From assembly GCA_015485525.1 (NCBI GenBank), contig WFTM01000403.1, positions 1-34,248 of the forward strand: a stretch of 34,248 nucleotides of DNA, in the 5' to 3' direction. The notes under the pieces are model-generated. The model made no database searches. It saw only the letters and a list, made by a program, of their open reading frames with translations, and was not told the origin of the DNA. Shown here in pieces: positions 8,446 to 27,819 of the stretch. Both the position numbers and the translations under genes were made by a program. Source of the DNA: Candidatus Zhuqueibacterota bacterium (GTDB lineage Bacteria; Zhuqueibacterota; Zhuqueibacteria; Zhuqueibacterales; Geothermadaptataceae). Within the stretch, counting starts at the first letter, position 1, and each line of letters begins with the position of its first letter.

Positions 8446-10617
8446 ATGGAAAAAGAACATTCAGAACGCCTCGAGGACATCCGTTTTCTTCTCGAGCAGC
8501 GCAGGCAAACGTCCGATGAGGAAGGGCACTATTACGATCTCGAGGGCGTTTTTGCTTTTTTACAGAAGCCGGAAAGCGCTGACTCTCCTGCAGGAGGTAC
8601 AGGAGAGACGGAAGACGAGCTGAACGAGGCTGATCAGGATATTATCATCGAATTCTCTTCTGACGCCCTGGTGCCGGCCCCGGGTTTTTCTGCCGACCTG
8701 CCTGGTATGCAGGTCGCTGAGGAGCCTGCTGACGATGCTGGTGACACAGTTGAGCATGAGCAGTCCCCTGCGTTCGAACCGCAGACTGAGTACTCATTTT
8801 CAACCGCAGATGACCCAGATAGTGTTGACGAGTCGCGGCAACACGAACCTCAGCAGGCAGACCCGGCTACGAAGGAACAGCCGCCTGTGCAGGAATCTGC
8901 GGCCAGCGCCTCAGTGACTGCTGCCATGGGAATTTTGCTGCAACAGCAGTTGTCTGCCGGCATCGATGTGGGCAGTGCGTTCTTGAAGTATATCGGTTTG
9001 CGCAGTGCGGCAAGCGGTGTTCTGCAGTTGCAAAGCGCTGTCATCGATCCTTTGCACAACATCGAGGAAGTCGAAGACGGTCAGGAGAAAATCAGCAGAA
9101 AGCTGAAACATGTCGCCACACGTCTGCGCGGCCGTTTCAAGAGTACGGACTGGGTGGTCGGTGCTGTTTCCGGACTGGAAGTGATCTATAAACGCATCGC
9201 GCTGCCGAAAATGTCGAAAAAAGAGCTGCGCGAGGCTGTTCCCTGGGCTGCGCGTAAGGATTTGCCTTTTGAAGTCGAAGATGCGGCGCTGGACTTTCAG
9301 ATACTTGGCAACACCCGCGAAGGCAAGGTCGAGAAGATCGAGATAGCCACATTGGCGACACCGCGGCAGGTGGTCGATGATCATCTTGCTCTGTACCATG
9401 AGCTCGGTGTGATTCCCGCTAAAATTACCGGTATCCCTGTTGCGATTCGCAACGTCATTTGCCGCAGTAAGGCGTTGCTGCGCCAGCGTGTGCTGGTCAT
9501 TGAAGTGGGGGCAAAGAGCACGCACATGGTGTTTATCAATCAGGGGCGGCTCGAGTTTCACCGCGAGTTCAGCACCGCTGCCGATGATCTGTTCGAAGCT
9601 TTTTGTAATGGCACCGGCCTTGTGGGAACCCAGGGGGGCTGGGACCGCCGGCAGGCGAGAGAGCTGTTCGACGAGCTCGGCCTGCCCCTTGACACAGACC
9701 CTGATCCGCGCTGGCATGAGAGAAAGATGGAGGATATCGGTGCCAATGTCCGCACCGTCATCGATCGTCTGACCAGCGAGGTGAGACGGTCGGTGGATTA
9801 CTACCGTGACAAGTTCAAGGCAACGGGATTTGATGCCGTCTATCTCAGCGGTGGCGGAGCGAGCGTACGGCATTTGATAGACCATGTCGCTGCTGTGCTG
9901 GATCAGCAGATGGAGGTGCTCAACCCCTTTGAAATTGCGGGCGTGAGAAAATGGCAGGAGAAGCTGCCGGCTGTGGGACAGGCAGCGCATTTTACGGTTG
10001 CTCTCGGTCTTGCTCTGGATAAAAGTGACAGCCTGAACCTTTTGCCGGAGGAGATGAAGGGGGCGCACCGCATCCGCAAAGTGAGGAAGTTTTTGCGCTA
10101 TGCTGCGGCTGCAACAGTGCTCACCCTCGGCATGGTTACGGCGTATTTTACACTGCAACTCAATCGTTTCTCATCCGACCTGCAGCGGTTGCAGCAGGAG
10201 TATCAACGGCTGGTGCCCAAGCAGAAGGAGTACATGGCACTCAAGAAGCGGCTGGAAACTCTGCAGGCAGTAGCTGAAGGCTATCAGTCGGAAATTTTTG
10301 TCAACACCACCGCCAAAACGCATCTGCAGGCGCTCTCCCATCTGGTCAAGAGCAACCTGGCCCTGACATCGATCACCATCGAGCCGGTCGTGCTCAGCGA
10401 GTCTGCGGAGGGTGAAGCCAAGGAAGAGCAGCCCCCGGGCACAGAACGCATCACCATCAGCGGTGTGGCGTTCCCGGACCAGGCACTGGAAGGCGCGCAC
10501 CTGGCCGCCTTTTTGTTAAATCTCGAGCAGTCGGGATATTTTCAGAAAATTCAGATTAAGAACCGGGAAACCCGGGCTGACGGCACCATCCAGTTTGTCG
10601 TGCAATGTTATTATTGA
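8446..10617 (+). CDS. Type IV pilus assembly PilM-PilN fusion with a long acidic N-terminal extension
   Basis: PilM actin-like core from AGIDVGSAFLKYIGL; VYLSGGGASVRHL; then TM helix FLRYAAAATVLTLGMVTAYFTL plus coiled coil and PilN-like C terminus. Starts 2 nt after the ABC ATPase stop. Confidence 0.85.
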   Translation: MEKEHSERLEDIRFLLEQRRQTSDEEGHYYDLEGVFAFLQKPESADSPAGGTGETEDELNEADQDIIIEFSSDALVPAPGFSADLPGMQVAEEPADDAGDTVEHEQSPAFEPQTEYSFSTADDPDSVDESRQHEPQQADPATKEQPPVQESAASASVTAAMGILLQQQLSAGIDVGSAFLKYIGLRSAASGVLQLQSAVIDPLHNIEEVEDGQEKISRKLKHVATRLRGRFKSTDWVVGAVSGLEVIYKRIALPKMSKKELREAVPWAARKDLPFEVEDAALDFQILGNTREGKVEKIEIATLATPRQVVDDHLALYHELGVIPAKITGIPVAIRNVICRSKALLRQRVLVIEVGAKSTHMVFINQGRLEFHREFSTAADDLFEAFCNGTGLVGTQGGWDRRQARELFDELGLPLDTDPDPRWHERKMEDIGANVRTVIDRLTSEVRRSVDYYRDKFKATGFDAVYLSGGGASVRHLIDHVAAVLDQQMEVLNPFEIAGVRKWQEKLPAVGQAAHFTVALGLALDKSDSLNLLPEEMKGAHRIRKVRKFLRYAAAATVLTLGMVTAYFTLQLNRFSSDLQRLQQEYQRLVPKQKEYMALKKRLETLQAVAEGYQSEIFVNTTAKTHLQALSHLVKSNLALTSITIEPVVLSESAEGEAKEEQPPGTERITISGVAFPDQALEGAHLAAFLLNLEQSGYFQKIQIKNRETRADGTIQFVVQCYY

Positions 10618-10665
10618 AACCAGCCTCTGCGGTACAGCCCGAAAGGCGCATGCGGACGGAATGAT

Positions 10666-11235
10666 ATGAAAAATGCAAAACGCAATATCCTGATTTTCAG
10701 CGGCGTGCTGATTTCTATCAGTGCTTCGTGGTATGCCTGGCTGATCCAGCCGAATCAGGTTCGACTGGAGACATTGCAGAATCAGATCAATACGGTTTTT
10801 CAGCAGGTCGAGGCGGCCACGGCGCAGTTGCAGCAGTTTGATGATTTGCGTCGCCGGATCAGTGTGATGGAAGACAGCGTGGCCCGGCTGGAGCGCCGCT
10901 TGTATCCGCGCGAGAAAATTCCGTCGATACTGAAGCAGATCGCCCGGCTCGGCCGCCGGCATGGCCTGGAGATTTTTGCCCTGTACCCGAAATTCGATGA
11001 GCTGCTGCTGAACCAGTCGGGGAGCGACAACACCTCACTCGCCGTGTTGCCGGTGGAGATACAGCTCGAGGGCGGTTATCGTGCCATCGGCGAGTTTGTC
11101 GGCAAATTGGATCGCCAGCGGTTTTTATTTTCGGTCGTGCGGATGGACCTGGCCATGACACGGGAAAGCTACCCGCGCGTGCGACTTATATTATATGGAA
11201 GGCTTTTCCTGCGCAAGGCCCGACAGGAGGTTTAG
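10666..11235 (+). CDS. pilO: PilO-like type IV pilus inner-membrane protein
   Basis: N-terminal TM, coiled coil, ferredoxin-like C-terminal region (LAVLPVEIQLEGGYRAIGEFVGKLDRQRFLFSVVRMDL); position after PilMN. Confidence 0.8.
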   Translation: MKNAKRNILIFSGVLISISASWYAWLIQPNQVRLETLQNQINTVFQQVEAATAQLQQFDDLRRRISVMEDSVARLERRLYPREKIPSILKQIARLGRRHGLEIFALYPKFDELLLNQSGSDNTSLAVLPVEIQLEGGYRAIGEFVGKLDRQRFLFSVVRMDLAMTRESYPRVRLILYGRLFLRKARQEV

Positions 11236-11377
11236 CCAGAACGAGCAGATTTAATTCTCCTGTCTGCCCTCATGCTGCAGGTTGACGCCTCAGCCAAACT
11301 CAGTTCAGCTTTTTACACCTCGTCCCGGCAGCCCGGAATCTTGTGAGTGATGCTAATTCATGGATAAAGTGGAATAG

Positions 11378-11872
11378 ATGCAGAAACGGGAAAAAATTCT
11401 CGCGGCAATCACCCTGGTGAGCGCCATGCTTTTCGTGTTCAATCAGTTTGTTTGCGCGAAGAAGCCCGAGCCGGCAGTGAACAAAAGCAGCCGGCGGGCG
11501 CCGGCAGTACGCCCGGTCGTCAAGGGTGAGCAGATTTCTGATGCCGAGCTGCGCAAACGCCTGAAAGAATGGAAGCCGGTCGTGAGCTACGAAACGTGGG
11601 GACGGGATCCTTTTGAAGGGGCGCTCAAATTCGAAGCAGAGGACAGCACGGCAGACTCGACAGCAACGTTGAGTCTGACCGGAATCGTCTGGAAAAACAA
11701 AACACCGCTGGCTCTCATCGGGGATTGGATTCTCGGCGTCGGCGATAAGCAGGGTGGTGTCGAAGTGCTGAAAATTTTCCCGGACCGGGTCATCGCCCGC
11801 AGGGGGACGGAGATGTTGACACTGTACCTGCATCAGGATGATAAGAATGAAAGCACGATATCTGGTTTTTAA
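11378..11872 (+). CDS. PilP-like pilot/lipoprotein-type component of the type IV pilus (164 aa)
   Basis: N-terminal TM, WGRDPFEG, then HR-like domain LSLTGIVWKNKTPLALIGDWILGVGDKQGGVEVLKIFPDRVIARRGTE; between pilO and the secretin. Confidence 0.65.
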   Translation: MQKREKILAAITLVSAMLFVFNQFVCAKKPEPAVNKSSRRAPAVRPVVKGEQISDAELRKRLKEWKPVVSYETWGRDPFEGALKFEAEDSTADSTATLSLTGIVWKNKTPLALIGDWILGVGDKQGGVEVLKIFPDRVIARRGTEMLTLYLHQDDKNESTISGF

Positions 11873-13543
11873 ATTTTTGCTGATCACCTCGCTGCATGCT
11901 GCGGACAAGGCGCAGGTACTGGAAATTCGCTATGCCGACCTCGGCAAACGGGAGCGTATCGAAGTTTTATGCTCCCGGCCGGTGCGCTACACCAGCACGA
12001 CAGCACAGGATCCGGATGCGATACTCGTCTATCTGCGCGATGCTGTTTTGCCTGCAGACAGTGTCCGGCTGGTGCCTCCGGCATTGGCGTCCCGTCTCGA
12101 AATCAGGAGCTGGATGGAGCACCCGCCGGTTGTGAAAATCTCCCTGCGTTACGCGGGTGGGGGCAGATATTCCATTTTTACCATCGACGACAGCAACTTG
12201 CTGGTTATCGAAGTGAGCAGGGAGGCGGAGAGGCTGGAGGATGAAAAGCCGGCGACTGAGGCTGTTGATGAAACGCCAAAGCCTTCGGCCCGGGCTTTTT
12301 TCAGAAAATTGAGCAACGGCGCGCGTATCACCGCTGATTTCCGCGATGCGGATATCGCCAACGTGCTGCGCCTGTTTGCTCGGCAGAACTCGCTCAACAT
12401 TGTGGCCAGCGACAGTGTGCGCGGCCGGGTCACTGTGACGCTGCACAACGTCACTCTGGAGCAGGCACTGGAGAGCATCCTGCGTGCGAACGGCTACAAG
12501 TATATCCTCGAAAATGGCATCCTGCTGGTCAAGCCTGCCAATACGTTCAACCTCGATGAGATGGAGACGCGCGTCTATCGCCTCAATTACATCGATGCAC
12601 ATAACCTCAAGCAGGCCGTGGAGGAGCTTATCTCCACGGAGGGGAAGATCAAGGTACTGGCCACGGGCTTTCATAACCGTAAGGACGTGTATGAAGTCAA
12701 TGATCAGGCTCCACCGGAACGCGAAAAACGCTACTGGCAGCGCTCCAGTGTGTTGATCGTCACTGATTTTACTTCCAATCTCAAGGCGATCGACAAGCTC
12801 GTTTCCGAGCTCGATGTTGCTGTGCCGCAGATTATGATCGAAGCCAGGCTGATCGAAGTTTCGCCGCTGGATAACAGCAACATCGGCATCGACTGGACAA
12901 AGGCGCTGAAGCTGGATATCTATGACGCGCAGTTGCTGGAAAGCGGGGGACTGCTGGAGTATTCCTCGCGAACCGAGCTGCCGAACAAAAACCGGACGAT
13001 CCAGTTGGGAACTCTGAACACCAGCCAGTTCGGCGCTGTGATCAATTATCTCAAAGAAAACACGCGCACCCGCCTTGTTTCCAATCCGCGCATCGTGGCC
13101 ATGGATAACGAGCCATCAGACATCTCGGTCGGCACGACCTTCCCGATTCCGCAAATCAACCGTGGTGTCGGCGGCCAGGGCGATATCGTGACCTTTACCT
13201 ACCGCGATGTCAACATTACCCTGCGTGTTATCCCGCACGTGATCAATTCCAACACCATTTCCATGTATGTCAATCCGATCATCGAAGAGGTGACCGGCGA
13301 AGTCACAGTCGAGGGCAACAGCGCGCCGATCACCTCAAAGCGTGAGGTGGATACGGTCGTCAAGGTGCGCGACGGCGATACCATCGTCATCGGTGGCATG
13401 ATCAAAGAAAAGGAAGTCGTGAGTGTGCGCAAGGTCTGGCTGCTGGGGAGTATCCCGCTGCTCGGCCACTTGTTCCGCAACAAGAGCGTGTCGCGCCAGC
13501 AAACCGACCTGCTGATTTTCATCACCCCAAAAATCGTCGTGCA

Positions 13544-13547
<4 letters not shown>
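11838..13547 (+). CDS. pilQ: PilQ/GspD-family secretin (AMIN/STN/secretin)
   Basis: ITADFRDADIANVLRLFARQNSLNIVASDSVRGRVTVTLHNVTLEQALESIL (STN), secretin VPQIMIEARLIEVS, TRLVSNPRIVAMDNEPSDISVGTTFPIP, DGDTIVIGGMIKEKE, PLLGHLFRNK, LLIFITPKIV. Start may be 11847. Confidence 0.93.
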
Positions 13548-14605
<1,058 letters not shown>

Positions 14606-16308: not shown

Positions 16309-16992
16309 ATGCCGTTTCCTCTCGCTCATCAGCTTGGCAGTCTGTTTTATCCGGCAGACTGCCTGCTGTGCCATGCTTCGCAAAAAGACCTGCGTCACTG
16401 GGTGTGTGAGCCATGCTATGCCGGGCTGTGTGCTTTGCCGCTGGCCGGGCAAAGGGATATCCGGCTTGGGAACAGCCGGGTCATGCCTGTTTTCAGCCGC
16501 TGGTTTTATGATGAGACAGTGCAGGAGCTGATCCATGCTTTGAAATACGCCAGGCACTTTTCTCTTGCCGCCCAGCTGGGCGAAGAACTCACCCGCGGGC
16601 TTGAACAGGCCGGATGGGATATGCAGGGCTGCATCCTGGTACCGGTACCGTTGCATAAGCGCAGGCTGGAAGAACGCGGTTTCAATCAGAGTGAGAAACT
16701 CGCAAGGGCAATTGCCAAGGCAACAGACGCGCGGCTGAAGGTTGTGCCGCTGGTCCGCCGCGTGCGTTACACCCAGTCGCAGACGCAACTGAGCAGTGAA
16801 CAGCGGCAGCAGAATGTTGCCGGTGCGTTTGCTCTCAGCCGCATGCGGAAAAGGCATGTGGCGGGTGCGCGCCTCATGCTTGTCGATGATGTGCTGACAA
16901 CCGGGGCAACGCTGCAGGCATGTGCGCACATACTGCTCGCAGGCGGCGCTGCAGAAGTCCGGGCCATCACTATGGCCAGAGTGCATGCCTGA
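16309..16992 (+). CDS. ComF-family phosphoribosyltransferase-like protein
   Basis: N-terminal CLLCHASQKDLRHWVCEPCYAGL (CxxC pairs), VPVPLHKRRLEERGFNQSEKLARAIA, PRTase motif LMLVDDVLTTGATLQAC. Confidence 0.9.
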   Translation: MPFPLAHQLGSLFYPADCLLCHASQKDLRHWVCEPCYAGLCALPLAGQRDIRLGNSRVMPVFSRWFYDETVQELIHALKYARHFSLAAQLGEELTRGLEQAGWDMQGCILVPVPLHKRRLEERGFNQSEKLARAIAKATDARLKVVPLVRRVRYTQSQTQLSSEQRQQNVAGAFALSRMRKRHVAGARLMLVDDVLTTGATLQACAHILLAGGAAEVRAITMARVHA

Positions 16993-17050: not shown

Positions 17051-17079
17051 TTGACATTTATGGGGTTTTGTGCTATAAT
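17051..17079 (+). promoter_or_regulatory. Consensus sigma70-type promoter upstream of pfkA
   Basis: TTGACA (17051-17056), 17-nt spacer, extended -10 TGcTATAAT (17074-17079). Confidence 0.8.
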
Positions 17080-17197: not shown

Positions 17198-18214
17198 GTG
17201 CCAAGAATTGGACTGATAACCAGCGGTGGTGATTGCCCCGGGTTGAACGCTGCGATTCGCGCTGTGACGCGCCAGCTGATCAACAAATATGATGCTGAAG
17301 TTATCGGTATCCGCAATGGATTCAGCGGACTGGTCGAAGGCAGCTTTGAACCAGTCAGCCTGTACTCAGTATCAGGTATCTTACCGCGTGGCGGCACCAT
17401 ATTGGGCACCTCCCGCATCGATCCACTGGCCGACCCCAGGGCAATAGACACGATCAAAAGCCATCTCGATCGTTATGAAATCGATGCCATGGTTGTCATT
17501 GGAGATCGCGATGCGATCGATGTTTCCCATAAGCTGACCAAGCATGGCCTGAATATCGTTTGCATACCCGCGACGATCGATAATGACATAGCAGAAACCG
17601 GAATGTGTTTCGGGTTCAGTACTGCAGTCAAAATTGCCACAGAGGCGATCGATCGGCTGCACTCGACGGCAGATTCTCATCACCGTGTCATGGTTGTAGA
17701 AGTGATGGGGCGGGAAACCGGATGGATTGCTACCTATGCAGGCCTGGCCGGTGGCGCTGATATTATTCTCATTCCGGAAATCGATACTTCGATCGATGAA
17801 ATTTGTTCTTTGATTACCAAACGCCATGCGCGCAGAAGCTTCAGTATCGTGGTCGTCGCCGAAGGTGCCAATCCGGCTGGAGTCGAACGGCTCAAAGCCA
17901 GGGATGAAGAGATCAGTCACCAGCACGGGGTTGGAGAGTGTGTTGCCAGAGAAATTGAAAAACGCACGGAAGTGGAAACGCGCATCGCCGTTCTCGGGCA
18001 TATTCAGCGAGGCGGTACGCCGACTTCGGCTGACCGTATTCTGGCAACGCGTCTCGGTGTTAAAGCAGCCGATTTTGTCGTCAGCGGTGAGTACAATGTC
18101 CTCGTCGGTTTGCGCGATGCCAGGGTTCGCAGCATGTCACTGGATACCGTAGCGGGCCGGGTTAAAAAAGTCGATCCGGATATGTACGAAATCGCTTCGG
18201 TCTTTTTCGGATGA
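17198..18214 (+). CDS. pfkA: 6-phosphofructokinase family protein (altered GGDGS motif)
   Basis: GTG start; PRIGLITSGGDCPGLNAAIRAV, GGTILGTSR, PATIDNDI, AIDRLHSTADSHHRVMVVEVMGRETGW, GHIQRGGTPTSADR. Confidence 0.9.
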   Translation: MPRIGLITSGGDCPGLNAAIRAVTRQLINKYDAEVIGIRNGFSGLVEGSFEPVSLYSVSGILPRGGTILGTSRIDPLADPRAIDTIKSHLDRYEIDAMVVIGDRDAIDVSHKLTKHGLNIVCIPATIDNDIAETGMCFGFSTAVKIATEAIDRLHSTADSHHRVMVVEVMGRETGWIATYAGLAGGADIILIPEIDTSIDEICSLITKRHARRSFSIVVVAEGANPAGVERLKARDEEISHQHGVGECVAREIEKRTEVETRIAVLGHIQRGGTPTSADRILATRLGVKAADFVVSGEYNVLVGLRDARVRSMSLDTVAGRVKKVDPDMYEIASVFFG

Positions 18215-18243
18215 TAACCGCGACAGGAAGGGAGCAGCAGGAT

Positions 18244-19002
18244 ATGGCAAGACAGAGCATCATAGCGGGAAACTGGAAAATGCACAAAACACCCGCGGAA
18301 ACCCTGCGCCTGTTGAACGGTTTAAAGGTTCGGGCGGTCAATATCTCCAATGTTGAAATGGTGGTATGCCCGACGTTTGTCTCCCTCACCATCGCTGCCG
18401 AGGCGTTGAAAGACTCGCGCATAACCCTCGGGGCGCAAAATATGTTCTGGGAAACAGAAGGCGCCTATACCGGTGAAATTTCGGCGCCGATGCTGAAAGA
18501 AGCAGGCTGTACTTACGTTATTTTGGGTCATTCGGAGCGGCGCCAGTATTTTGGCGAAACAGATGAGACGGTCAACAAGCGTATGCATCGTGCTCTTGCC
18601 GAAGGCCTGAAGCCGATTATGTGTATCGGTGAAACCTTGCAGGAACGCGAGGACAACCGGATGTTCGAAGTCCTCGAACGCCAGGTTACTGCTGGTTTGT
18701 CTGGGATATCGGCCGGCCAGATGGCCGATGTCGTACTTGCCTATGAGCCGGTTTGGGCCATCGGTACCGGTAAAACCGCGACGCCGGAACAGGCAGATGA
18801 GGCGCATGCTTACATCCGTGGCCTGATCGCAAAAGCATACGGAGATAGCGTTGCAAGCGCCATCCGCATTCAATATGGCGGTAGCGTAAAACCCGGCAAT
18901 GCAGCGGAATTGCTGAGCAAAGATAATATCGACGGTGCCCTCGTTGGAGGGGCCAGTCTGGATGCAGAGAGTTTTATCGCAATTATCAAAGCTGCCGAGT
19001 GA
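18244..19002 (+). CDS. tpiA: Triosephosphate isomerase
   Basis: Preferred start MARQSIIAGNWKMHKTPAET with RBS; GHSERRQYFGETDE, AYEPVWAIGTGKTATPEQA, IQYGGSVKPGNAAEL. The ORF extends upstream to 18211. Confidence 0.96.
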   Translation: MARQSIIAGNWKMHKTPAETLRLLNGLKVRAVNISNVEMVVCPTFVSLTIAAEALKDSRITLGAQNMFWETEGAYTGEISAPMLKEAGCTYVILGHSERRQYFGETDETVNKRMHRALAEGLKPIMCIGETLQEREDNRMFEVLERQVTAGLSGISAGQMADVVLAYEPVWAIGTGKTATPEQADEAHAYIRGLIAKAYGDSVASAIRIQYGGSVKPGNAAELLSKDNIDGALVGGASLDAESFIAIIKAAE

Positions 19003-19032: not shown

Positions 19033-19422
19033 ATGTATACGCTGATCTTGATTCTTTTTTTAATAGTCTGTATTTTAATGACTATTACTATCCTGATGCA
19101 ATCCAGTAAAGGCGGTGGGCTGGCAGGCGCTTTTGGCGGTGCCGGCGCTGGCATGGGTTCTGTCTTTGGTGGCCGAGGCGCAGCGACGTTCCTGAGCAAA
19201 GCGACCTCGATTCTGGCAGCAGCCTTCTTTGTTCTGGCTTTCATCCTGTCATACATGGATTCCGGCAGCTCGACGGCACCGGCGGGAATCGTCGAGCAAG
19301 AGCTGCAGAAGCAAGGCCAGACAGAGCAGGTGTTGCCCCCGCTGCAGGAGTCGATCCCGGCGGTACAGACGCTGGAACAAACACAGGGTGAAGCAAGTTC
19401 ACAGCCTGATACATCGAAGTAA
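19033..19422 (+). CDS. secG: Protein translocase subunit SecG
   Basis: Two TM helices; ILMQSSKGGGLAGAFGGAGAGMGSVFGGRGAATFLSKATSILAAAFF. Confidence 0.93.
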   Translation: MYTLILILFLIVCILMTITILMQSSKGGGLAGAFGGAGAGMGSVFGGRGAATFLSKATSILAAAFFVLAFILSYMDSGSSTAPAGIVEQELQKQGQTEQVLPPLQESIPAVQTLEQTQGEASSQPDTSK

Positions 19423-23535: not shown

Positions 23536-23589
23536 TTTGACATGACCCGGAACGGATATCCGGGGATTTGGTGCAAAAGGAGTTTGCGG

Positions 23590-25035
23590 ATGGTGTCACG
23601 AACATGCCTGAGTCATGAGGTTCAGCGATTTGTCTATAGCGCCATACTATCGGCGATGTTGGCATTTTCTTTTAACGGGCCGTCTGTGCAGGCGCAGGAA
23701 GCGAGCACCGCTCCGGCCCTTGAAACAGCTATCGCTGATCTCTCACGCAAGCTGCTGCCCTCAGTTGCACGCATCACCAGCACCATCGACGCTGAAATAT
23801 ATTCACCCCGGCGTGAAAATCGTTCATCCCGCCCTTTTTCTCCATTTTCTCCCGGTGCCGATATCATGCGGCAGGAAAGCACCGGCTCTGGTGTTATCAT
23901 CTCACCGGATGGATACATCGTCACCAACGTGCATGTCATCGATGGTGCTCAGCAGATTACCGTGACTCTTGCGGATAACCGGTCCTTTTCCGCGGACATT
24001 GTCGGGCTGGACCGCTTCACCGAAATTGCAGTCATCAAAATCGCTGCAGATAAGTTGCCGTATGCACGCCTGGGCCGTTCTTCTGACTGCCGGGTAGGGG
24101 ACTGGGTTGTCGCTATCGGTAATCCGATGAATCTGCACTCGACGGTTACGGTTGGGGTTATCAGTGCCTTGCACCGTACTATCGATATCATTCAGGATAA
24201 TTTTGCCCTGGAGAGTTTTATCCAGACAGATGCGGCCATCAATCCGGGTAACAGCGGCGGGGCGCTGGTCAATTTACGAGGCGAAGTGATCGGCATCAAT
24301 ACGGCGATAGCCACGGACACTGGATATGGCATGGGCTATGGGTTTGCCATTCCCTCAGATATCGTGCGCAAAGTTTCTGCAACGCTGATTCGCTATGGTC
24401 GAATCATTCGTCCTTATTTCGGGATCGCCATGCTGAATATCGACGCTGTGCAGGCTCGGGCCCTTGGACTCGAACGCCCCATGGGGGTGCTGGTCGATGA
24501 TGTTTTCCCTGGCAGCCCTGCAGCCAGAGCCGGCCTGCAGCCGCTGGATATCATCCTGCAGATCGATGAGTTGGCAGTCACCCGGGTCAATGCTCTGCAG
24601 GAATATATTCACCAGCTCAAGCCGGGCACGGGGGTCCGAGTCCTTTTTCTCCGTGAGGGCAAAGAGCATAGCCTGCGCGTTCGTCTCGAAGAAATCAGCG
24701 GTGATCCGGCGCGTGGGAAGAAAACAGCACGCATGCAAACCGGACCGCGCTGGAAGCACCTGGGTTTGGAAGTCCGGTCGCTGACGCGCTACGACCGGAT
24801 AGAGCTCGGTTTGCGCGAAAGGAACGGGCTGTTGATTACCGGCGTAAAAGATTTTAGCCCGGCGGAAAAAAGCGGGCTGCACATCGACGACGTCATCGTG
24901 CGCTGTGACAGGAAGCAAGTTTCCACTCCGGAGCAGCTATATACTCTGATAGCCGGGAAGAAAACAGGGGATGTCCTCATCGTTGCCGTGCGCCGTCAGG
25001 ATGGCCTGTATCATCATTTTATCGAAATTCCATGA
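23590..25035 (+). CDS. HtrA/DegP-family serine protease with PDZ domains (paralogue 1)
   Basis: ORF opens at 23542; ATG at 23590 has RBS aaggag and a signal peptide. GSGVIISPDGYIVTNVHVIDGA, FTEIAVIKI, QTDAAINPGNSGGALVNL, two PDZ-like regions. Confidence 0.92.
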   Translation: MVSRTCLSHEVQRFVYSAILSAMLAFSFNGPSVQAQEASTAPALETAIADLSRKLLPSVARITSTIDAEIYSPRRENRSSRPFSPFSPGADIMRQESTGSGVIISPDGYIVTNVHVIDGAQQITVTLADNRSFSADIVGLDRFTEIAVIKIAADKLPYARLGRSSDCRVGDWVVAIGNPMNLHSTVTVGVISALHRTIDIIQDNFALESFIQTDAAINPGNSGGALVNLRGEVIGINTAIATDTGYGMGYGFAIPSDIVRKVSATLIRYGRIIRPYFGIAMLNIDAVQARALGLERPMGVLVDDVFPGSPAARAGLQPLDIILQIDELAVTRVNALQEYIHQLKPGTGVRVLFLREGKEHSLRVRLEEISGDPARGKKTARMQTGPRWKHLGLEVRSLTRYDRIELGLRERNGLLITGVKDFSPAEKSGLHIDDVIVRCDRKQVSTPEQLYTLIAGKKTGDVLIVAVRRQDGLYHHFIEIP

Positions 25036-25259
25036 TCGCTGCTCTGCCCGGGGGCGGCCAGCGCTATTTTTCTCTTGATTCACGAATAAAAAATGATGAT
25101 TTTTTCTGTTGGCCCTGAACCGTAAGCTCTGCGCCCGGCAAATCACGCGGCCCTTTTCCCGTATCCTCTCCGGAAAAGTTCTCACAGTACGAGTTTTAGA
25201 TCGGATAATGGATACTGCAACGCGAAAACAGTTTGCCAATCGGGAGAAATTTGAGACCT

Positions 25260-26201
25260 ATGGAAGTTAAAGATTACTATCATATATTGGGTGTTTCTGA
25301 AAATGCGAGCGCTGATGAAATCAAAAAGGCGTATCGTGTTCTGGCAAAGAAATATCACCCTGATGCCAATGCACAGGATGCGGCAGCAGAAGCCAAATTT
25401 AAAGATATTTCCGAAGCTTACGCGGTTTTGAGCGATGATGAGAAGCGAAAAAAATATGACCAGTTGCGCCGTTTCGGCAGCGCGCAGCCTGGTGGGGGGG
25501 ACTGGTTCTCGTTTGACCCGAGCACGTTCCGTCGCTCCGGCGGCGCAGCTCCATTTGAGGAGTTTGGTTTTTCTCAGACAGGCGGCATATCGATCTCAGA
25601 CCTGTTGAAAGAACTCTTTGGTTTTGAAGGCATGGCCCGCGATCACGGTGCTGCAAGCCGCCCGCGGCCACAGGCGAGAAAGCGCCAACAGCAGACAGCC
25701 GAAATCGCTATCTCACTGGAAGACGCGGTGCTCGGTACGACCAAATTGGTAGAAGTCACTTCGACACGCAAATGCGGGCGCTGCCATGGCACGGGCAATG
25801 TTTTGGGCAAAACCTGCCCGACGTGCCAGGGCACCGGCAAAATCAAGGCGCGGAAGAAGATCAAACTGAAAATACCTGCCGGAGTTGAGGATGGCCACAA
25901 GATGGTCCTGCGCGGCATGGGCAGCGATACTTCGGGAAAAGGCAACAATGACCTCTATGTGATCGTACGCATCAAGCCGCATAAGTTTTTTAAACGCCGC
26001 GGCAACGATATCCACTGTGAAGTTCCTGTGGATGATACGGTGCTGCAGAAGGGCGCCCGCATCCGGGTGAAAACGATCGAAGGGAAAAAAGTCGAGGTGA
26101 CGATCCCGCCGAATACGGAAAAAGGCAAGGTCTTTCGTCTGCCCGGCCTTGGGGTGAAGAAAAACGGCAGCGCCGGCGCGCAGTACGTCAAAGTCGTTTG
26201 A
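25260..26201 (+). CDS. DnaJ-family co-chaperone with a reduced zinc-finger region
   Basis: Start [37 protein letters not shown] (J domain, HPD); only two CxxCxGxG motifs ([16 protein letters not shown]); DnaJ_C domain. The ORF extends to 25233. Confidence 0.92.
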
Positions 26202-26298: not shown

Positions 26299-27819
26299 AT
26301 GTATATCAGCAAAAAAATGCTCGTGCTGATGGCTTTTGCCGTGGTTCTGGGTACGATCATCGGGCTGGTGATCGCATCCAGTCTGAATTTTACCCCGGAC
26401 ACAAAGGCGGGCGTGTACCTGTTCCGCGAGAATATTGCCCTGGGGGATAACGCCGGGCGGGTAGAGGAAAATGATGATCTGCTGCAGTCGCGCCGGGCGT
26501 TCGTTGCGGTGGCACGGCTGGTGACGCCATCGGTTGTGAGCATTACCAGCGAGCGTCAAGTTGAGCGCACGGCCCGCGATTTTTTCCACTTCTGGCGTGA
26601 TGACAGAGAAGATGACAACAGCGACGAGCAGCCACGTACTGAACGACAGAGCGGCCTCGGCTCCGGCGTTATCATCCACTCTGATGGCTACATCGTCACC
26701 AACAATCACGTCATCGAAGGCGCTGATAAAATCTACGTGACGATCGACCGCCAGCGCTACGATGCTGAGATCGTCGGGCGGGATACCTCCACGGATCTGG
26801 CTGTCATCAAGATCGAGGCTGATTCGTCTTTGCCGGCAATCGCTATCGGCAATTCGGACAAGATCGAGGTGGGGGAGTGGGTGTTGGCAGTGGGCAATCC
26901 TTTTTCCATTGCTCTGCAGCATACGATCACTGCTGGAATCGTCAGCGGTATCGGCAGGGCGAATGTACTGGGCAGAAATATCGAATATGAAGATTTCATT
27001 CAGACAGATGCGGCTATCAATCCCGGCAACAGTGGCGGCGCGCTGGTCAATCTCAGGGGCGAGCTTATCGGCATCAACACGGCGATTTATTCGCGCGGGA
27101 TGAGCAGTGGCAACATCGGTATCGGTTTCGCAATTCCATCCAACCTCGTTTCCTTTGTCGCCAGGCAGTTGATCGCCGGGGGGCGTGTTATCCGCGGCTG
27201 GCTGGGCGTGCAGATTTCTTCCCTGGATATGAAAACAGCGCGTGCCTATGGCCTGAAGCGCCCTCTCGGGGCCCTGGTTTCAGGTAAACCCACCGGGCCG
27301 GCAGCGGCCGCGGGCGTGATGGAACGAGATATCATCGTTGGCTTTGCCGGCGTCGCTATCAAAGACCACAACCACCTCATGCACGTTGTTGCCCGGCATA
27401 AGCCGGGAGAGGAAGTGCCGGTGGAGGTCATCCACGAGAACGGTGAACGCGAAACCCTGACCGTGGTGCTGGGCGACCGCGATGCCAGTCTATACAGCGA
27501 GAGCCGTGCACGGCAGGAGCAACGCCGGCGCAGCCAGGGTCTGATCCCGGGTTTGACTCTGCGTACCCTCGACGCCGAGCTCGCCCGCATGCTGCGCATC
27601 GATCCGGGTGTTTCCGGGCTGGTAATTCTCGAAGTTGACAAAAACAGCGAGGCTGCCTCCGAGGGTGTGGAGCCCGGTGATATCATTACAGCGGTCAATG
27701 GCACACAGGTCGCGGCTTTGTCTGATTTGGAAGAGATATTACAAGGGGATGAGGAGAATTTGCTGGTACAGCTTCTGCGGGATGGAGAAAAGTTTTTTGT
27801 GGCTCTGAATGTGGAATAG
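26299..27819 (+). CDS. HtrA/DegP-family serine protease with PDZ domains (paralogue 2), N-terminal membrane anchor
   Basis: TM KMLVLMAFAVVLGTIIGLVIA; GSGVIIHSDGYIVTNNHVIEGA, STDLAVIKI, QTDAAINPGNSGGALVNL; two PDZ regions; RBS ggaggt. Confidence 0.95.
   Translation: MYISKKMLVLMAFAVVLGTIIGLVIASSLNFTPDTKAGVYLFRENIALGDNAGRVEENDDLLQSRRAFVAVARLVTPSVVSITSERQVERTARDFFHFWRDDREDDNSDEQPRTERQSGLGSGVIIHSDGYIVTNNHVIEGADKIYVTIDRQRYDAEIVGRDTSTDLAVIKIEADSSLPAIAIGNSDKIEVGEWVLAVGNPFSIALQHTITAGIVSGIGRANVLGRNIEYEDFIQTDAAINPGNSGGALVNLRGELIGINTAIYSRGMSSGNIGIGFAIPSNLVSFVARQLIAGGRVIRGWLGVQISSLDMKTARAYGLKRPLGALVSGKPTGPAAAAGVMERDIIVGFAGVAIKDHNHLMHVVARHKPGEEVPVEVIHENGERETLTVVLGDRDASLYSESRARQEQRRRSQGLIPGLTLRTLDAELARMLRIDPGVSGLVILEVDKNSEAASEGVEPGDIITAVNGTQVAALSDLEEILQGDEENLLVQLLRDGEKFFVALNVE

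Follow-up and report, generated by a model that had tools for sequence, protein, structure and literature searches.

A probable stand-alone phosphofructokinase-fold pseudoenzyme derived from group III PPi-dependent enzymes in Candidatus Zhuqueibacterota

What is the function of a protein with the fold of a phosphofructokinase (PFK) if the part of its active site that should hold the phosphoryl donor is broken? The question is raised by a gene in the window, which is the 34,248-nucleotide stretch of contig WFTM01000403.1 (Candidatus Zhuqueibacterota bacterium) that was analyzed here. We propose that the product of this gene is probably a stand-alone PFK-fold pseudoenzyme descended from a group III PPi-PFK, which would bind neither PPi nor ATP, would probably still bind F6P or FBP, and would serve as a sensor or regulator.

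The gene is one unbroken 338-amino-acid frame on the + strand (17198-18214), and its translation reads VVIGDRDAIDVSHKL and CIPATIDNDI. The sequence-only reading had described IGDRDA at the donor loop, an Ala before TIDND, otherwise intact motifs, and a continuous frame; translation bears out all of this, including the SGGDCPG, MGR, and GHIQRGG motifs. Residues are numbered after E. coli PfkA, whose known active-site residues align in register. The gene and its sites are as follows.

17198..18214, + strand: PFK-A (group III) pseudoenzyme gene (candidate), 338 amino acids, GTG start (frame, motifs, Pfam, TIGR02483, AlphaFold, PDB match)
17501..17515, + strand: G102-D103-R104-D105-A106 in the protein's own numbering, E. 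coli 101-105 (translation)
17501..17524, + strand: phosphoryl-donor loop, eroded to G-D-R-D-A-I-D-V, E. coli 101-108 (GGEDTLGV in the parent group)
17570..17572, + strand: Ala125 (E. coli 124), at the PPi-contacting Lys124 site, in P-A-TIDND (Lys in 78 of 78 PPi-type relatives)
17573..17587, + strand: TIDND, kept, with Asp127 (catalytic base) and Asp129 (motif check, column comparison)
17684..17686, + strand: Arg162 equivalent, reaching the neighboring subunit's F6P site, kept (column comparison)
17705..17713, + strand: MGR, E. coli 169-171, kept (motif check, column comparison)
17861..17863, + strand: Glu222 equivalent, F6P contact, kept (column comparison)
17981..17983, + strand: Arg243 equivalent, F6P 6-phosphate, kept (column comparison)
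17999..18010, + strand: H-I-Q-R, His249 and Arg252 of the F6P site, kept (motif check, column comparison)

Profile and structure searches place the protein in the PFK-A superfamily. The Pfam PFK model (PF00365) scores 352 bits over 276 of the 277 positions of the domain, and the best PDB match to the AlphaFold model (mean pLDDT, 92.5; 87.9 for the more eroded ortholog L034) is the bacterial PFK 3pfk, with a TM score of 0.90. The best NCBIfam model is TIGR02483 PFK_mixed (group III), at 393.5 bits, which is below the cut-off of 430.55. With a looser model, NF002872 ("ATP-dependent 6-phosphofructokinase"), the protein scores 388.9 bits against a cut-off of 253, and automatic annotation would therefore misname it.

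The relatives of the protein indicate which kind of PFK it came from. Among the best 80 relatives from 84,980 species genomes, 78 are group III proteins, from many phyla, that carry the PPi-type motif GG(E/D)DT...PKTIDND, and the other two are L034 and an eroded Omnitrophota protein, L106. Residues G102, D104, T105, K124, T125, D127, D129, R162, R171, R243, and R252 are invariant in all 78 PPi-type relatives. A maximum-likelihood tree made with the donor columns left out places the clade next to the PPi-type PFKs of group III and separates it from ATP-type paralogs within that group and from group I; the eroded family forms a clade with support of 100/98 and is joined to a sister family at 96/88. 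The tree and the motif table thus place the window protein by PPi-type group III, as a PPi-PFK minus its PPi site rather than an ATP-PFK altered at two points. Alignment with the PFK groups had been proposed in the sequence-only reading, and its outcome corrects that reading on one point: GGDGS, the group I ATP-PFK motif that served it as a yardstick, belongs to the wrong group and was rejected as the baseline for change, since the parent motif is GGEDT. The same reading had correctly noted a PPi-like Asp104 and the missing Lys124. Because D104 is invariant in all 78 PPi-type relatives, Asp104 is ancestral in the window protein, having been retained rather than gained.

Three donor signatures have been published, namely, GGDGSxxG for ATP, GGDGSxxI for ADP, and GG(D/E)D(S/T)xxx for PPi (PMC11609450), and GDRDAIDV matches none of them. 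Relative to the parent group, the window protein has the changes G102D, E/D103R, T105A, K124A, W41F, and T73I, and it reads PATIDND where P[G/K]TIDND is expected. GDRDA stands where a PPi-PFK has GG(D/E)D(S/T), and Ala stands in place of Lys in P-K-TIDxD; an ATP-PFK would have GGDGSxxG with Gly104, but here residue 104 is Asp and residue 108 is Val; and the GGDGSxxI of ADP-dependent PFK-A is absent as well. The equivalent of Lys124 contacts PPi in Borrelia (B. burgdorferi) PFK, and an Asp104 obstructs the alpha-phosphate of ATP (PMC12203962).

A wider comparison used 110 columns, each at least 95% conserved in the 78 PPi-type relatives. These were sorted into donor, acceptor, and other columns by the established ligand contacts of bacterial PFK. 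The window protein departs at 6 of 10 donor columns, 0 of 11 acceptor (sugar-phosphate/catalytic) columns, and 14 of 89 other columns. The corresponding departures are 6/10, 0/11, and 6/89 in a second genus of the family (g2) and 5/10, 2/11, and 15/89 in a third (g3; L008), while the PPi-type proteins themselves depart at <1% of conserved columns. Fisher tests (for the window protein, P = 0.004 for donor versus other and P = 0.004 for donor versus acceptor; for the second genus, P = 0.0001 for donor versus other) are to be read as descriptive because the donor class contains the loop that prompted the finding; W41, T73, and K124 are donor losses of the window protein that lie outside the loop. 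The sugar-phosphate half is complete in the window protein (T125, D127, D129, R162, M169, R171, E222, R243, H249, and R252), and R72 is also kept. Two arginines that extend into the neighboring subunit's site, R162 and R243, are invariant across all orthologs, eroded or not.

Orthologs occur in 13 of the 82 genomes of the phylum, and all 13 lie within the window's own order (15 genomes). The two members of the order that have no ortholog also have no tpiA, and so the locus is probably unassembled there; absence from G001, the second genome of the window's genus, is likewise uninformative as a real loss, given that tpiA is missing too. One member of the family matches Calditrichaeota bacterium CLD5 with complete identity over 3.3 kb, which makes the organism a relative of the Calditrichota. 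All six distinct proteins of the window family, which come from separate assemblies and include that of the window, show an altered loop and lack Lys124. The loop is GDRDA with PAT in the window's genus, GDVDA with PTT in the second genus, and GGKAA or GAKSA with PST in the third, and every member has Ala for T105 and a small residue for K124. A single new donor motif common to the clade was rejected, since the loops differ genus by genus. On the evidence of these alignments, the loss is common to a whole clade and is not a product of chance or base error.

The sister family presents a different picture. Its donor loop is intact, GG(E/D)DT with PKT, but all of its proteins (L010-L016) carry Ser or Pro in place of His249; one genus also has R72L and G11S, and another has E222A. 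By these residues, erosion in the sister family lies in the other half of the active site, the sugar side. The most eroded genus of the window family has lost R171 as well, and its H249 is Tyr, so that the family as a whole does not strictly preserve an intact sugar site. Given that the donor loop persists in the sister family and His249 is changed there, no single, simple "sensor" anatomy holds across the clade.

The surroundings of the gene are conserved. Within the window, its neighbors are as follows.

16309..16992, + strand: ComF-like phosphoribosyltransferase, conserved upstream neighbor in the window family (synteny)
17051..17079, + strand: sigma-70-type promoter match TTGACA-17-TATAAT, 12/12 with extended -10, about 120 bp upstream of the gene (consensus match only)
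18244..19002, + strand: tpiA, triosephosphate isomerase, conserved downstream neighbor (synteny)
19033..19422, + strand: secG, downstream of tpiA

Every other genome of the order with a readable locus has the order pfk-gap-tpiA, with ComF upstream in the family. In the window, tpiA directly follows pfk, and 18214-18244 holds no gap gene; the gap gene of this genome sits on another contig (G000:C315:13008-13478), and the eroded pfk stayed in the operon. Farther away, the window carries a type IV pilus or type II secretion-like cluster (8446-14605), in which Pfam identifies a secretin (11838-13547) and a PilT-like T2SSE ATPase (13544-14605) and in which the upstream ORFs look by eye like pilus assembly proteins. 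Translations read by eye also suggest HtrA/DegP-like serine protease ORFs at 23542-25035 and 26299-27819, flanking a DnaJ-like ORF at 25233-26201.

A second pfk, for which the sequence-only reading had proposed a search, is indeed present. The window's own genome encodes an intact ATP-PFK (L002; NF005301, 636 bits, cut-off of 400, GGDGT/PKT) and an intact PPi-PFK (L003; NF041103, 645 bits, cut-off of 550, GGDDT/PKT), both of which share the PFK-A fold but have intact donor sites and pass their equivalog cut-offs. An NF041103 PPi-PFK is found in every genome of the order that is at least 90% complete (in G010, as a contig-truncated match). PFK activity is thus covered by other PFKs, which fits a relaxed donor site, and loss of the sole PFK was rejected because two intact PFKs of other types are in the genome. 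Class I and class II FBPases are both encoded too, and a role as a missing FBPase is not needed.

Unusual sites also occur in other PFKs encountered here. In two genomes of the same order but of the sister family (G010 and G011), a group I-type PFK (L117 and L120) carries D103N (GGNGS), an unusual Mg-site change, and Ser at 124 (ASTIDND) and is otherwise intact. L106 (2222-3238; Omnitrophota bacterium nzgw313) belongs to group III and also has a damaged site, showing G11A, GGEET, T125S, and D129A (PKSIDNA); it is probably a PPi-PFK that eroded independently.

Could the altered loop be an artifact or a sign of decay? The assembly is metagenome-like, with 493 contigs, but five further assemblies of the family show a like loss at the syntenic locus with the aligned register unchanged, and a sequencing, assembly, or binning error is exceedingly improbable; assembly error or compensating frameshifts were rejected on the grounds that orthologs carry the altered site in register. 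That a redundant PPi-PFK is becoming a pseudogene would agree with the presence of redundant PFKs in every well-assembled genome and with the faster evolution of the clade relative to the canonical paralog in the same genomes (93.0% versus 98.1% identity, G004/G002), but we consider it improbable. None of the 13 orthologs contains an internal stop or frameshift. Pairwise NG86 dN/dS in the eroded family is 0.036 for L005/L006 and 0.044 to 0.087 among third-genus pairs, with synonymous sites saturated in several family pairs, and these values of 0.04 to 0.09, far below 1, largely refute decay: purifying selection maintains the eroded PFK. Identity between the window PFK and its g2 orthologs is 64 to 65%, no lower than that of the adjacent TpiA (61 to 62%). 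The operon position is held across the order, and the acceptor site of the window protein is untouched. Low dN/dS, a consensus promoter, an order-wide operon, and confident AlphaFold models together constitute evidence against decay.

If selection maintains the protein, it might still be a working phosphofructokinase whose re-shaped donor pocket accepts a different donor or substrate. The catalytic base D127, D129, R72, R171, and the F6P site are all kept in the window protein, strong purifying selection acts on a gene placed in a glycolytic operon, and donor use in PFK-A is plastic, with ADP-dependent PFK-As having been recognized only in 2024 (PMC11609450). Nevertheless, no published donor signature fits, a new site should be conserved but the loop differs by genus, R171 is lost in one genus, and other intact PFKs are present, all of which make this reading unlikely. 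A non-catalytic subunit of a hetero-oligomeric PFK, in which R162 and R243 would complete an active partner's F6P site and the protein's own site would be regulatory, is a doubtful proposition as well. The invariance of both arginines in all orthologs speaks for it, as do the canonical group III PFKs carried by g2 and the sister family and the precedent of eukaryotic PFK, which assembles catalytic and non-catalytic units together (PMC12203962). However, neither the window's genome nor the g3 genomes contain the one group III partner of comparable size, their other PFKs being of distant types (400 to 475 amino acids), and no conserved adjoining gene encodes a partner of the PFK family.

Several known systems help to situate the protein. 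Group III PPi-PFKs (IPR012829/TIGR02483; the Amycolatopsis methanolica, Dictyoglomus, and Thermoproteus type) share its length, fold, F6P site, Asp104, and tree position, and members from Latescibacterota, Omnitrophota, Actinomycetota, and archaea are about 50 to 55% identical to it (among the Latescibacterota, L035 is a syntenic relative with an intact GGEDT loop); unlike them, it has neither GG(E/D)D(T/S) nor Lys124 and falls under the TIGR02483 cut-off. The group I ATP-PFK E. coli PfkA has the same fold (1pfk, TM score of 0.87; 3pfk as above) and F6P site, but it belongs to another group by the tree, the window protein lacks its GGDGS/PGT donor site, and the residues at effector-site positions R54, D59, R154, and H215 differ. 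A further parallel is the C-terminal half of eukaryotic ATP-PFK, which lost its ATP pocket while its F6P pocket became the fructose-2,6-bisphosphate effector site (PMC12203962). As in the window protein, the donor pocket is lost and the sugar pocket is kept, and alignments reveal that the C halves of human liver and yeast PFKs have Ala at 105 and 124 (GGFEA, IPAT), as it does. The eukaryotic half arose independently by tandem fusion, whereas the window protein is an unfused, stand-alone protein of 338 amino acids that keeps Asp127 and Asp129; the likeness is an analogy, not homology of function. A literature search confined to an open-access library returned no relevant paper on a bacterial PFK pseudoenzyme or on PFK in Calditrichota.

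The pseudoenzyme reading therefore remains the one that we favor. Residues needed for catalysis are lost clade-wide under purifying selection, and the window protein has a complete sugar-phosphate site. We suggest that the ancestor of the window family lost the donor half of the active site, with T105 replaced by Ala and K124 by a small residue, and that the loop then drifted to its four present forms in the descendants. With the donor half gone, neither PPi nor ATP would be held productively, and no FBP would be made. The protein would persist as a homo-oligomer with its binding of F6P or FBP preserved, and it would serve as a sensor, a buffer, or a regulator. Its gene would remain part of the pfk-gap-tpiA operon, and the flux would pass through other PFKs. 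To judge from the residues, catalysis has very likely been lost, and binding of F6P or FBP is likely to have been kept in the window's genus; a regulatory role, argued by analogy, is about an even proposition. Retention of D127, D129, R72, and R171 may leave the protein with residual activity or an unusual donor. The sequence-only reading had offered an altered donor, a regulatory role, or inactivity, which was the right set of options, and the evidence favors the latter two because the loop fits no published donor signature and differs in each orthologous genus.

PFK is a textbook allosteric enzyme, and its eukaryotic regulation arose when a dead active site became a sugar-phosphate sensor. 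More tentatively, with odds that we place somewhat short of even, a whole order of bacteria may possess, in its glycolytic operon, a stand-alone PFK pseudoenzyme dedicated to sensing F6P/FBP or serving as a regulatory subunit. Such a protein would be an independent bacterial parallel to the regulatory half of eukaryotic PFK, and erosion would have taken opposite halves of the active site in the sister families (the donor side versus the His249/Glu222 sugar side). There is also a trap for annotation, in that automatic pipelines, and metabolic models built for these uncultured bacteria, would list as their PFK a protein that is probably inactive. If our proposal is true, a free-standing bacterial protein would represent an independent replay of the trade in which the donor pocket is lost and the sugar pocket is kept, and the window PFK would offer a compact system for studying the step from active site to sensor.
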